A stretch of 64,000 nt of DNA, taken from Loripinus fragilis. Lineage: Eukaryota > Mollusca > Bivalvia > Lucinida > Lucinidae. Each line of letters begins with the position of its first letter. The first letter of the stretch is position 1. The translations under genes and the position numbers were made by a program. The notes beneath the pieces were generated by a model that saw nothing but the letters and a program-made list of their open reading frames with translations, was not told the origin of the DNA and did not search any database. Below are positions 57,263 to 64,000 of the stretch, piece by piece. The stretch lies in the NCBI GenBank assembly GCA_964019695.1, contig OZ026515.1:133384849-133448848 (forward strand), given 5' to 3'.

Positions 57263-58554
57263 GTAAATTATTTTGACATTATTTCACAAACTAGTGGTCA
57301 AGGTTCAGTGTTTCGTAGTCGTACTATAGCCCGGCGTCTTGTCAATTTGGCATTTATTATTCAAATCTTGCATCCGTTTTACAAGTAATTATAATGGCCA
57401 GTTGAAAAGTGGCGCATAAAGATGACAATATTACAAATACCACATCCACTTGGTTTAATGATAAAATTTACCACGAAAGGTTATATATTTCTAGATTACT
57501 GGAGTTAGATGTTCTCCTCTTTTAGATATTCATAGATGTAATAAATCACATCATGGTGTATGTAAAATGGGAATTAAAATTCAAACACAGACATGTTTTT
57601 AGACTTTCTGTTTAAGCATCACATTCAAGCATTCAGATCACCATATAACTTTTTCACGTTTAATAACTCAAACTATCTCCTCATCTCCTAACTTGGATAT
57701 TTAGGTTAATAAATTTTATGATAGCGCTCATTGACTTCATGACGCAGCACTTCTAACAAGGTGTTATACTTAACATGCTCTTTGGTTTTTATAGACTCTG
57801 AAATAAACAATATTAGACATTTTATCAAAATTAAATGTCAACAAAGAGATTGATTTCATTAAATTAGTTCCCAGTATAGTTATAATAAATCTGCCATCTC
57901 TTCTATTCTTGCTTATTTTGAATACGGAATCTCCTATGATTTGTTATATACTGAACGAAACTTCTAAACCGCCAGTTAACACAACACATTTTTCAATATA
58001 GCTGCTTTGTTATTAAACGGTTTGCAATGATATTTGACACAGTATATCTGGGCACATGTATCCGTCGATTGAACTTATAAAGTTTGATTCAATAAGGATG
58101 TTGATTTATGTGTAACAATAGAGTACTAATACCTGTTTTGCACATGACACACGTTGCTTAATGTTTTTCGCCTTGTGTATACTCGTTTTTTCATTGACAA
58201 CTATCCAACAACTTTATTTTATCACAAAAATGCCAACGTTTGGGTTGTATGAGTTTAAAGTAGAGGGATCAAGCTGTGGGTTCAATCGAAAACAGGGCCT
58301 TGCTGAGACGGGTTCATAATTCATCATAAAGTTTTACATAATTTGATAGAGTCGACAGTTTACACCACAACCTGTCGGCCATTTTTTATTTTTGCACTCG
58401 TATGAGGAGAAAAATCGACAAAAACTGAGTATACCGTGTCATAAAATGTCCTGCATAGTCCACCATACTTTTGTGCGGTGATGCATAAATGCTGCATTGG
58501 AACGTCGGAAGCGTCGAAACTTAGGTGCAGTACACGGTAAATGGGTGACAGATG
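57263..58554. other. Downstream intron or intergenic DNA
   Basis: No coding exon with hydrophobic helices was found. The rest is AT-rich and featureless. Confidence 0.4.
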
Positions 58555-58885
58555 TTTCAATAATATTGCAAACAAAAATATTCCATCACCATAAACCCAT
58601 TTCTGTGTTCTTTTAGGCCATATGGGCCTCCATAGGAGCACTGATTTGCACGAAAATTGCTCATTTATTACTAAATAAATACGATAGTGTTCAATAATGT
58701 CCATTTACAGCACCAAAAAGTTTCAATAATATTGTTGACAAAAACATGTCATCTCCATAAAGCATTCTCATGTTGTTTTATGGCATATGGGCGTCCATAG
58801 GTACAATGTGGATTACCTGAAAATTCCTACTTAATTAAAGCGAAACACAAAAATGTTCATGTTGTCCATTTATAACACCATAAAG
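58555..58885. repeat. ~170-bp direct duplication
   Basis: The blocks 'ttcaataatattg', 'ccatatgggc(c/g)tccatagg', and 'tgtccattta(c/t)a(g/a)caccaaaa' occur twice in order, at about 170-bp offset. Confidence 0.6.
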
Positions 58886-59419
58886 TTGGTGTTTTCCACT
58901 TTAGGTCCCTGGAAAACTCGATTTTATGCGATGAGTTCAAGTTTTAGCGTTTGTGTGAAAATGAAATGCGATGGTGCCTTTATACAGTCTATCAATTGAG
59001 CATGTTAATTTCAATTTATGATAATGAACTTTTGACAGGTTCTTTTCAATTGATTTATCCATATTGAGTGTAAAATGTAGCCGTGTAAGTATCATAAATG
59101 TTAAGATATATGAGAAAATATTGAGTGGCGGTTTGGAAGTTTCGCTCAGTATATATGGCCTGGTCATTAAAATTAATGGTTCCAAGAAATGCAGACACTA
59201 TTGTTCCTGAAATAAGTTGAGACATTATATAACCAACCTATAAGTAAATCTGTTAAAACATATTATTTTGCAAACTTTGATTCAAATATACCATTCAAAA
59301 GTTATCAGCATTTTCACTAAAATACCTCGACCGGCCAAAATTATACTCGGCAAACCCTCGACACTCTTTCACATACCAGTGACAGACACACATAGTGATT
59401 ATAGTGCAGATCCAAGGGT

Positions 59420-60429: not shown

Positions 60430-60504
60430 TATACTGTAGATTCGGAAATTTTCGCGACAATTTTATTTTCGCGAGAAGTAATTATGTCTCTTTAGCCCCA
60501 CGTA

Positions 60505-60540
60505 CTGCGCATGCGCGGCGGCCATATTGGATGACGTCAT
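60505..60540. promoter_or_regulatory. NRF1 / YY1 / CRE motif cluster
   Basis: A consensus NRF1 palindrome TGCGCATGCGCG (60506-60517), a YY1-like GCGGCCATATTGG and a perfect CRE TGACGTCA (60532-60539) lie within 36 bp. A second CRE is at 60664-60671. This grouping is typical of CpG-rich housekeeping promoters in animals. No matching gene start is visible on either strand nearby, so it may be a promoter relic, an unrecognised gene's promoter, or part of a repeat. Confidence 0.4.
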
Positions 60541-60557
60541 CATTAGCATCAACTTTA

Positions 60558-60871
60558 AAAAAAGGTCCCTTATGACCATACAAAATTGTGTAAAAAGGTC
60601 CTTTTTAACAAGACAAATGGATGCTGTAGAATTATAGCATCAAGTTCAAGGTCACTCTCGTAATGACGTCATTTTCTATTTTTAATAACTGACACGTTCA
60701 GACCTGTTTATCTATATTTAGACATTATGACTTCTTACACTCTGAGCCCTTTTTCTTCTGACACCTATTCAGACAGCTGTATGGAGAAAATCAATTTTAA
60801 TGACCGCTATAAAAGAAGAGCAATAAGATGCACCTGGCCCATTTTAAGGTCCCTTATGACCACACAAAATG
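60558..60871 (+). repeat. 25-bp direct repeats bracketing ~290 bp
   Basis: AAGGTCCCTTATGACCATAC at 60558 and AAGGTCCCTTATGACCACAC at 60847 continue identically into AAAATG/T. The bracketed segment ends with 'tctatatttagacatt', also found at the tail of the following SINE. Confidence 0.5.
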
Positions 60872-61903: not shown

Positions 61904-62356
61904 ATGAATATTACCGACTGCGCATCTACCAAAGAACACATGGAATATTACAAAAATAGGTTGAAAACATTTGATACCTACCCCAAGCAAATGCTACCTG
62001 ACAAGATCTTATTAGCTAGAGCTGGGTTATATAATACTGGGAAATCAGACGTGTGTCAGTGTTTTCTCTGCCACATGAAACTCAATGCATGGGAACGAGA
62101 CGATGGCGCCATTAAAGAACACTATAAATGGTCGCCTCAATGCGAATACATCAAAATGGTGGGAGCGCCACAAAAAACAGGATTCACATTCGGATCAAGT
62201 ACTTCATCTTTTGGAGAGTTTGGAACAGGGTCTAGTAATTATGTGAAACCGCTGGATCCTAAAACCTTTCACATTTGGAGTAAAAACAGAGATGAACCTA
62301 TGTTTACATTGTTAACATGGTGTCACGACATTAATGACTTTTGCGTTATAAGATGA
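61904..62356 (+). CDS. BIR-domain (IAP-like) protein of the provirus, 150 aa
   Basis: Residues 19-84 are a BIR domain. R19 and T22-F23 open it, A-R-A-G-L-Y-N-T-G sits in the middle, and the zinc ligands C53, C56, H73 and C80 follow the exact pattern C-x2-C-x16-H-x6-C. BIR domains of IAP proteins bind caspases or their antagonists, and viruses of invertebrates use them to delay host-cell death. That role is inferred here. No RING domain follows; the tail (residues 88-150) is Ser/Gly/Phe-rich and of unknown role. Another frame (+1) opens at 62352 and runs to a stop at 62472-62474 with a charged helical stretch. The protein may therefore once have been longer and lost its end by a shift. The start is fixed by the promoter spacing. 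Confidence 0.85.
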   Translation: MNITDCASTKEHMEYYKNRLKTFDTYPKQMLPDKILLARAGLYNTGKSDVCQCFLCHMKLNAWERDDGAIKEHYKWSPQCEYIKMVGAPQKTGFTFGSSTSSFGEFGTGSSNYVKPLDPKTFHIWSKNRDEPMFTLLTWCHDINDFCVIR

Positions 62357-62515: not shown

Positions 62516-63645
62516 ATGTTTAAATTTGTAATAAAAATGACTGACTGGAAAGAATATCTGTCTCCTTTGTATTTTAATCCCAAATTACCATCCAGTTACT
62601 TAGGACCCGAAAAATTATACCAAATTGTTAAATCTCATGGCCGATTCAAAATAGGTAGACACCGTATTGGTGAATGGCTGCAAGAACAAGAGGCTTATTC
62701 GTAAGGTAAATATACAAGATCACGTGTCATAGTAGCTGGTATAGATAGTCAATGGGATATGGATCTCATGGACATGGTTGACCTAGCCAAACAGAATGAT
62801 GGTGTTAAATATGTCCTGGTTGCCATAGACATATTTTCTCGCTTTGCTCACTGTCAACCCATCAAAACTAAAAAAGGAGAAGATGTCTTACAGGCCCTCA
62901 AACTGATATTATCTGGAACATGAAAACCAAACATGATCAGAACAGATCGAGGCCAGGAATTTCTTAGCAAAGATGTCAATGCCTATTTAAAGGTCAAAAT
63001 ATTCATCACTTTTACGCCTTGATCACTGAAATTAAAGCCAATTATGCTGAAAGACTGATCAAGACTTTGAAACATAAACTATTTAGATATATGCTATAAA
63101 ACAGAACTCAACGTTATATCGACATCCTACAAGATGCAGTATACAGTTACAATCGTACCATACATCGAAGTTTGGGTAAGCCACCAGCAAATATCACAAA
63201 GGAAAATGAAGGTGAGAGTAGACTACAGCAATATCTATTAAGGCTAGGCACGGCTAAACGGTCCAACAAAACTAAGAAAAGGGCCAGGAAGAAGTACAAA
63301 TATAAGATTGACCAGACTGTACGTCTGTCTCATGTGAGAAGCTTGTTTGACAGAGAGTATTCTCAAAAATGGACTGGTGAAATATTCAAAATTCACACCA
63401 GGTTTAGACGAGAAGGTGTACCTGTATATACCATACTTGACTGGGATGGTGACAGGGTGGAAGGCACATTTTATGAACCAGAGTTACAGGCCATGAACGT
63501 TGACCCTTCTACGGAATACCACATTGAAAAACTATTAAAGAGACACTTACGAAACAAACAAAAAGAAGTCCTGGTGCGTTGGTTACTCTGGCCAAAGAAA
63601 TACGATAGTTGGATACCAGAAGCCGATGTGAAAGATTATTCTTAA
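62516..63645 (+). pseudogene. Polinton-type DDE integrase with chromodomain, broken
   Basis: An integrase catalyses strand transfer of the element's DNA ends. The N-terminal part (from 62516, or Met at 62534) has Y-L-G-P-E-K-L-Y and W-L-Q-E-Q motifs. The catalytic triad is still visible: Asp at 62762-62764 in W-D-M-D-L, Asp at 62945-62947 in T-D-R-G, and Glu at 63049-63051 in A-E-R-L. The second Asp and the Glu keep the D-x34/35-E distance. The last part (about 63508-63645) is a chromodomain with V-R-W-L-L-W-P and Y-D-S-W-I-P. Lesions are in-frame stops at 62702-62704, 62921-62923 and 63097-63099, and a frameshift between about 62985 and 63000. The last 157 codons (63172-63645) remain open. 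The copy cannot make an intact enzyme. Confidence 0.85.
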
Positions 63646-63673
63646 CTCTCATCTCAAAATCACGTGACTGAGA

Positions 63674-63704
63674 CACTTATAAATACCCTGGCGTTGTCAT
63701 TCAG
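63674..63704 (+). promoter_or_regulatory. TATA + initiator core promoter of the TBP-like gene
   Basis: CACTTATAA lies at 63674-63682 and TTCAG at 63700-63704, 23 bp from the first T of TTATAA. An E box CACGTG lies just upstream (63661-63666); the BIR promoter has the related ATCACAT. It falls 29 bp after the integrase stop, so the gene is separately transcribed. Confidence 0.65.
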
Positions 63705-63722: not shown

Positions 63723-64000
63723 ACGAAGATTACTAATGTTGTATATAGCGCTCATTTAGGTTGTTCTATGGATCTGGCTGGATTGTGCCAGCGACTATGG
63801 AACTGTCGGTATGATCCAAGGACATTTCCAGGACTTATTTGGCAACATCGACTTATTGATGGAAACTGTTTAGTGTTTGCCAGTGGTGCCATCAATTGTA
63901 ATGGTAAGGCGGTCAGCTTTGAAGAGGGTCGTCAAAGATTACAAAAGTATGCCAGAAAACTTCAAAACCTAAGATGTCCAGTACGCCTCAGGGACATCAA
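63723..64000 (+). CDS. TBP-like protein of the provirus, N-terminal part (runs off the window)
   Basis: The open frame continues to the window end, 92 codons from an ACG at 63723 or 77-78 from the first ATG at 63768. It matches the first repeat of TATA-box-binding protein: N-V-V-Y-S..H-L-G-C..D-L, then Y-D-P-R-T-F-P-G-L-I, then L-V-F-A-S-G, then Q-K-Y-A-R-K-L-Q. The two phenylalanines that wedge into the DNA minor groove in TBP are both present (residues 35 and 52 counted from the ACG), at exactly the family's 17-residue distance. Homology extends upstream of the first ATG, so the ACG is the likely ancestral start position. It aligns with the ATG of the BIR gene in a similar leader. A role in transcribing the element's own TATA promoters is inferred. 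The second TBP repeat must lie beyond the window. Confidence 0.8.

Follow-up and report, generated by a model that had tools for sequence, protein, structure and literature searches.

A TATA-binding-protein gene in Polinton-type elements of the bivalve Loripinus fragilis and its possible role in transcription

Known systems and the carrier element

Polintons, also called Mavericks, are positioned close to the origin of several groups of eukaryotic DNA viruses. A published account of vertebrate Mavericks gives them two gene modules, duplications of 6 bp and ends of the AGT type (PMC8097293). The words "TATA" and "TBP" are absent from the main text of the Polinton and related papers compared, and no TBP-bearing Polinton was found in the part of the open-licence literature that was searched. 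Homologues of the TATA-binding protein (TBP) are encoded by Megavirus chilensis (PMC11464507) and CpV-BQ1 (PMC12085832), and occur in 59% of mirusvirus genomes (PMC10132985). The giant viruses and mirusviruses have in common with the element described here a virus-encoded TBP homologue, but their genomes reach several hundred kb and include a large number of genes for transcription, whereas the element is about 14 kb in length. A possible analogue in mode of action is given by the late-gene TBP mimics of herpesviruses, BcRF1 of EBV and ORF24 of KSHV: these viral TBP-like proteins bring host RNA polymerase II to one class of viral promoters. These mimics are hard to find by sequence, whereas the TBP of the element is plainly homologous to cellular TBP.

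The window, i.e., the whole stretch of 64,000 nucleotides of L. fragilis DNA that was analysed, includes the left part of a complete insertion of 14,390 bp, which extends from position 60474 to C2:133459711. The carrier of the TBP gene is firmly identified as an insertion of the Polinton/Maverick type. Its left terminal inverted repeat (60474–60813, forward strand) starts with AGAAGT, and the partner ends with ACTACT at C2:133459711 (L010:3212); the repeats are about 340 bp long and share 88% identity over 356 aligned columns (90% over 340 with blastn). A perfect target-site duplication of 6 bp, TTCGCG, is located at 60468–60473 and is repeated directly after the far end (C2:133459712–133459717). 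The two arms of a 1.2-kb inverted repeat, 92% identical, lie to the left and right of the element outside this duplication (57947–59153 and L010:6567–7743).

The gene order of the element is BIR, integrase, TBP, ORF119, ORF150 and capsid candidate, with small frames, ATPase and polymerase B on the opposite strand. The BIR (inhibitor-of-apoptosis) domain gene (61904–62356, forward strand) encodes 150 amino acids and has a Pfam BIR score of 72.6 bits (cut-off 22.9); a BIR gene is also found to the left of the integrase in the loci L015 and L018–L021. The chromodomain integrase gene (62537–63645, forward strand) is interrupted in the window copy, where only the C-terminal frame, 63172–63645, is open (Chromo 28.8 bits, cut-off 25.1), and an uninterrupted relative in L032 gives 44.6 bits with rve and 37.8 bits with Chromo. 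To the right of the window, a DNA polymerase B of the viral/organellar type was matched on two pieces (DNA_pol_B_2, 57.6 and 74.3 bits, cut-off 25.8). The putative packaging ATPase frame, of the A32/FtsK kind, scores below the curated cut-offs (AAA_22, 22.4 bits against 27; Pox_A32, 18.3 bits against 22.8). The candidates for the capsid protein and the protease were assigned solely from their place in the gene order, and searches of Pfam, PDB and PHROGs gave no hit in their support.

An earlier note on this DNA had proposed a Polinton-like provirus, and the inverted repeats, the 6-bp target duplication, polymerase B and the chromodomain integrase bear this out. Among the genes which that note proposed to look for in the right flank, polymerase B was found, while the ATPase and the capsid candidate, the latter placed by its position, stand as just described. 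The alternative contents considered for this flank, an intron-bearing host TBP gene without viral genes, are absent, and element genes are present there instead. The element shares with the Polintons/Mavericks (adintovirus-like) its terminal inverted repeats, AGT-type ends and 6-bp target duplication, the polymerase B of the protein-primed type, the rve integrase with chromodomain and the two gene modules, with an ATPase candidate as a further likeness, and differs from them by the addition of a TBP gene and, in the lineages A and C described below, of a PC4-domain gene.

Identity, residues and origin of the element TBP

The TBP-like gene starts 77 bases after the stop of the integrase and on the same strand, in the arrangement that the earlier note had seen. 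In the window it comprises repeat 1 (63723–64000, forward strand) and continues to about C2:133449091. The frame 63723–63998 matches the Pfam TBP family with 56 bits (E value 3.6e-15, cut-off 22.9), so that the profile search agrees with the TBP homologue recognized from its repeat-1 landmarks. A second repeat was also sought and is present in intact relatives: one full copy shown contains two TBP stretches with 98 bits together (same cut-off), and in an intact element TBP the alignment to solved TBPs extends over both of their halves (query 3–164, E value 1.1e-20 for the single sequence; E value 9e-29 for a seven-sequence profile). By profile match and alignment, the two tandem repeats of the saddle-forming arrangement are present, and all seven aligned members match Pfam TBP. 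Full copies elsewhere in the genome are 174 codons long where they belong to lineage A or B and 172 where they belong to lineage C; they are intronless and begin at the TBP core itself, without an N-terminal tail. A single-sequence structure model of the window repeat 1 is weak (mean pLDDT 53.7) and has its secondary structure in the order of TBP. On these sequence comparisons, we assign the product of the element gene firmly to the TBP family.

The columns F35 and F52 of alignment A1, which correspond to the repeat-1 pair of phenylalanines 17 residues apart that had been picked out in the window frame, are invariant in all seven sequences, as are F125 and F140. All four are aligned with plant TBP, and we take them to be the four DNA-intercalating (DNA-kinking) phenylalanines. 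Element and plant TBP also agree in the Asn and Val of repeat 1 and in the second-stirrup Pro-Glu, and this Pro-Glu is presumably the TFIIB contact site. In yeast numbering, as we assign it, the element TBP has kept F99, F116, F190, F207, N69, V71 and E188, whereas N, T, S and C stand in place of T124, N159, V161 and L205, respectively. Position 205 is Ser in lineage C, and E186 is kept in A and B and replaced by Thr in C. Repeat 2 has lost two DNA-contact residues of cellular TBP. This pattern suggests that DNA bending and TFIIB contact have been kept, and that base or promoter preference may be altered, since minor-groove contacts are changed.

The window copy differs from the intact ones. 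Codon 1 at 63723, which is Met in intact copies, has ceased to be a start codon, and the coding sequence of repeat 2 changes frame at a break beyond the edge of the window. Because the start codon is lost and repeat 2 is frame-broken, this copy is a pseudogene, which cannot make protein as it stands. The family and the provirus context given in the earlier note hold; the gene at 63723 is not itself intact.

The host TBP gene is separate, being located on C1 in five exon pieces. Cellular and element TBP share the two repeats, the four intercalating phenylalanines and the stirrup Pro-Glu, but the element TBPs have only 32–35% identity with host TBP and lack introns and the N-terminal tail, whereas host and plant TBP are 83% identical. 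A recent capture of host TBP is not compatible with these identities, and a host TBP gene or retrocopy was ruled out by the same values and by the location and exon structure of the host gene. A small tree of 10 rows unites the element TBPs in a single clade (support 100/100), opposite a group that comprises host TBP, plant TBP and two viral TBPs from IMG/VR. No relative of the element TBP outside this genome was found in IMG/VR scans with alignments A1, A2 and A5. One IMG/VR match (L014) was rejected as a chance match, as it covers 26 residues and the other frames of its contig are phage-like.

Substitution rates were estimated by the method of Nei and Gojobori over 170 codons. In all 24 pairs between lineages A and B, dN/dS is 0.09–0.12 (dS 1.38–1.89), and the element TBP is under purifying selection between these two lineages. 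In 19 of the 20 pairs with lineage C, dS is undefined. Within lineages, dN/dS ranges from 0.37 to 2.0 (20 defined ratios among 21 pairs). The pattern fits a TBP that was needed while the elements multiplied, with selection relaxed after insertion.

Lineages, copies and linked genes

The TBP gene is present in at least three diverged Polinton lineages of this genome, A, B and C, described here from a set of loci. Lineage A, to which the window element belongs, has the order BIR, integrase, TBP, ORF119, ORF150 and capsid candidate, with ATPase and polymerase on the opposite strand. The genes of lineage B are all on one strand, in the order polymerase, integrase, TBP, small membrane-like protein and ATPase. 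Lineage C, with three copies that are about 99% alike over 8.5 kb, has a PC4-domain protein, TBP, ORF127, integrase, ORF143 and capsid candidate, with the ATPase opposite. The TBPs of A and B are 74–76% identical, and those of C have 58–60% identity with both.

A genome search with an A-type protein query gave 195 candidate TBP copies, 150 of which were scored. By identity, these comprise 23 A-like, 124 B-like and 3 C-like matches, the border being approximate for short pieces. Of the scored copies, 136 are near full length (at least residues 2–170), and 113 of these are without internal stop (8 A-like, 102 B-like and 3 C-like); start codons were checked for part of the 113. Copies of B type are often found within giant palindromes, e.g., L011 (C13:40000–49999) and L013 (C16:83968000–83977999). 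The arms of the L011 palindrome measure 2465, 489, 1054 and 710 nt and are 99–100% identical around a centre of 110 nt, and L013 has almost the same 110-nt centre as L011, in opposite orientation. Among the 150 scored copies, 36 pairs within 10 kb face outward and none is convergent. It may be that the TBP-bearing palindromes arose from the element as defective derivatives of the snap-back kind.

Linkage to other element genes was assessed with the 420-residue capsid candidate. A search with a C-type query, in which 100 of 1021 candidates were scored, gave 103 matches that were merged to 97 loci. A scored TBP lies within 21 kb of 60 of the 84 loci with at least 54% identity, where chance would give about 0.003 per locus. 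With the initial TBP list, which linked 57 of the 84, TBP was on the same strand at 2–6 kb in 16 loci and on the opposite strand at 11–20 kb in 41. The other 24 of the 84 have no scored TBP nearby, which may reflect loss, decay or a TBP among the unscored candidates, and none of the 13 distant capsid loci (34–42% identity) has a scored TBP. The gene is therefore not universal, or has often been lost, among the Polintons here, and since some related and all 13 distant loci are without it, it belongs to one Polinton branch of this genome rather than to all.

A PC4-domain gene accompanies TBP in several elements. The lineage C protein (L024) has 28.1 bits with Pfam (cut-off 25) and an E value of 5.1e-5 with PC4 in PDB, and contains a hydrophobic, membrane-like stretch near its start. 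In lineage A, a PC4 gene to the left of the BIR gene scores 46.8 bits on an open piece in L019 and is frame-broken in L019 and L020; no match to PC4 was found in the window and L009. Eight of 12 A-type PC4 copies are within 21 kb of an A-type TBP. At two B-type places, PC4, capsid candidate and TBP lie within about 16 kb (C4:29735, 30298 and 44803; C2:133793816, 133794534 and 133808843, respectively).

Another element, L039 (C10:88095500–88098999), encodes two PC4 domains in a frame of 178 amino acids (68.3 bits). This two-domain protein is greatly amplified, with at least 150 copies (150 scored of 1186 candidates); among 138 such copies in a further list, 42 outward-facing pairings within 16 kb were counted, some copies twice, and no convergent one. 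L039 also contains a second, different A32-like ATPase frame (L039:1–1065; its 20.5 bits with Pox_A32 fall short of the 22.8-bit cut-off), the first 130 bases of which match a stretch between the integrase fragment and the centre in the palindromes L011 and L013.

A possible role in transcription initiation

A promoter-like block, so named from its sequence, precedes the TBP gene at 63661–63685 (forward strand) and consists of CACGTG (63661–63666) and TATAAATA (63678–63685). Among four aligned upstream rows of lineages A and B, TATAAATA is present in all and CACGTG in three, and the leader behind the block has diverged. In lineage C, TATATA is found at -62 of the TBP start, and a TATA-type match lies 40–62 bases upstream of TBP in all three lineages. 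Among 25 positions taken as gene starts, of which two are doubtful, a TATA-like match occurs within 130 bases in nine (at -40 to -80 in six), and 16 are without one. The motif TAAGAAT was rejected as a gene-start signal: it occurs 1–6 times per stretch and in none of seven stretches exceeds the highest of 100 shuffles.

We consider it probable, at roughly 0.6, that the element TBP serves as a basal factor of viral type and guides the RNA polymerase II of the host to the promoters of the element. The TBP gene would be transcribed by host machinery from its own E-box/TATA promoter; the product, with its four DNA-kinking phenylalanines, would bind element promoters through the saddle and use the retained Pro-Glu stirrup to recruit TFIIB and RNA polymerase II of the host, and where an element PC4-domain protein is present the two would work together, with the outcome that element genes would be transcribed in preference. 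This is supported by the TBP match over both repeats in a complete Polinton context, by the occurrence of the same gene beside the integrase or the capsid module in A, B and C, by the linkage to 60 of 84 capsid loci and the A–B dN/dS of 0.09–0.12, and by the conserved Phe, Asn, Val and Pro-Glu, the TATA-type match 5' of TBP and the PC4 genes of A and C. Against it are the 16 of 25 gene starts without a TATA-like match, the capsid loci without TBP (24 of 84 related and 13 of 13 distant), the within-lineage dN/dS of 0.37–2.0, the loss of two DNA-contact residues in repeat 2 and the negative IMG/VR scans. In cells, PC4 is a coactivator of RNA polymerase II initiation and also binds single-stranded DNA; the former fits a small initiation module, while the latter makes a role in replication possible. 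More tentatively, this Polinton branch may have assembled its own initiation module from a diverged TBP and a PC4-type coactivator, thereby reprogramming the host RNA polymerase II to a class of promoters specific to the element.

Other roles of the protein have to be weighed against the same observations. The element TBP might compete for DNA, TFIIA, TFIIB or TAFs and so damp host or antiviral transcription instead of driving element genes. The presence of the conserved core alone, the changes in some repeat-2 minor-groove contacts and the BIR-domain gene of lineage A, which belongs to a class often linked to host defence control, would agree with such competition, but the retention of the four DNA-kinking phenylalanines and the stirrup Pro-Glu across three lineages and the PC4-domain genes of the same elements argue against it, and we regard it as unlikely. 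Somewhat more doubtful is a structural factor that has given up its part in transcription and bends DNA in the course of replication, packaging or integration. TBP alone bends DNA and needs no partner for this, and its gene adjoins the integrase in lineages A and B; such a factor, however, does not account for the retained Pro-Glu, known as a TFIIB contact, or for the linkage to PC4-domain genes in several elements.

That the gene is a mere passenger, i.e., a captured cellular TBP that has no role and decays in the elements, is largely refuted and very improbable. The broken window copy and the within-lineage dN/dS values are as expected for a passenger, but they are opposed by the low ratio in all 24 A–B pairs, by the maintenance of the gene in three lineages with 113 of the 150 scored copies near full length and free of stops, and by the divergence from host TBP, which leaves no room for a recent capture.

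With a viral basal factor as the preferred reading, a conserved TBP, often accompanied by PC4, in elements so small would mean that an integrating virus could seize transcription initiation with one or two genes. If this is true, integrating elements of 14 kb have a strategy for transcription that has up to now been observed in DNA viruses of far larger size. The element TBP is also an old, independently diverged lineage in which changes of TBP specificity may be studied, and it offers a testable promoter switch.
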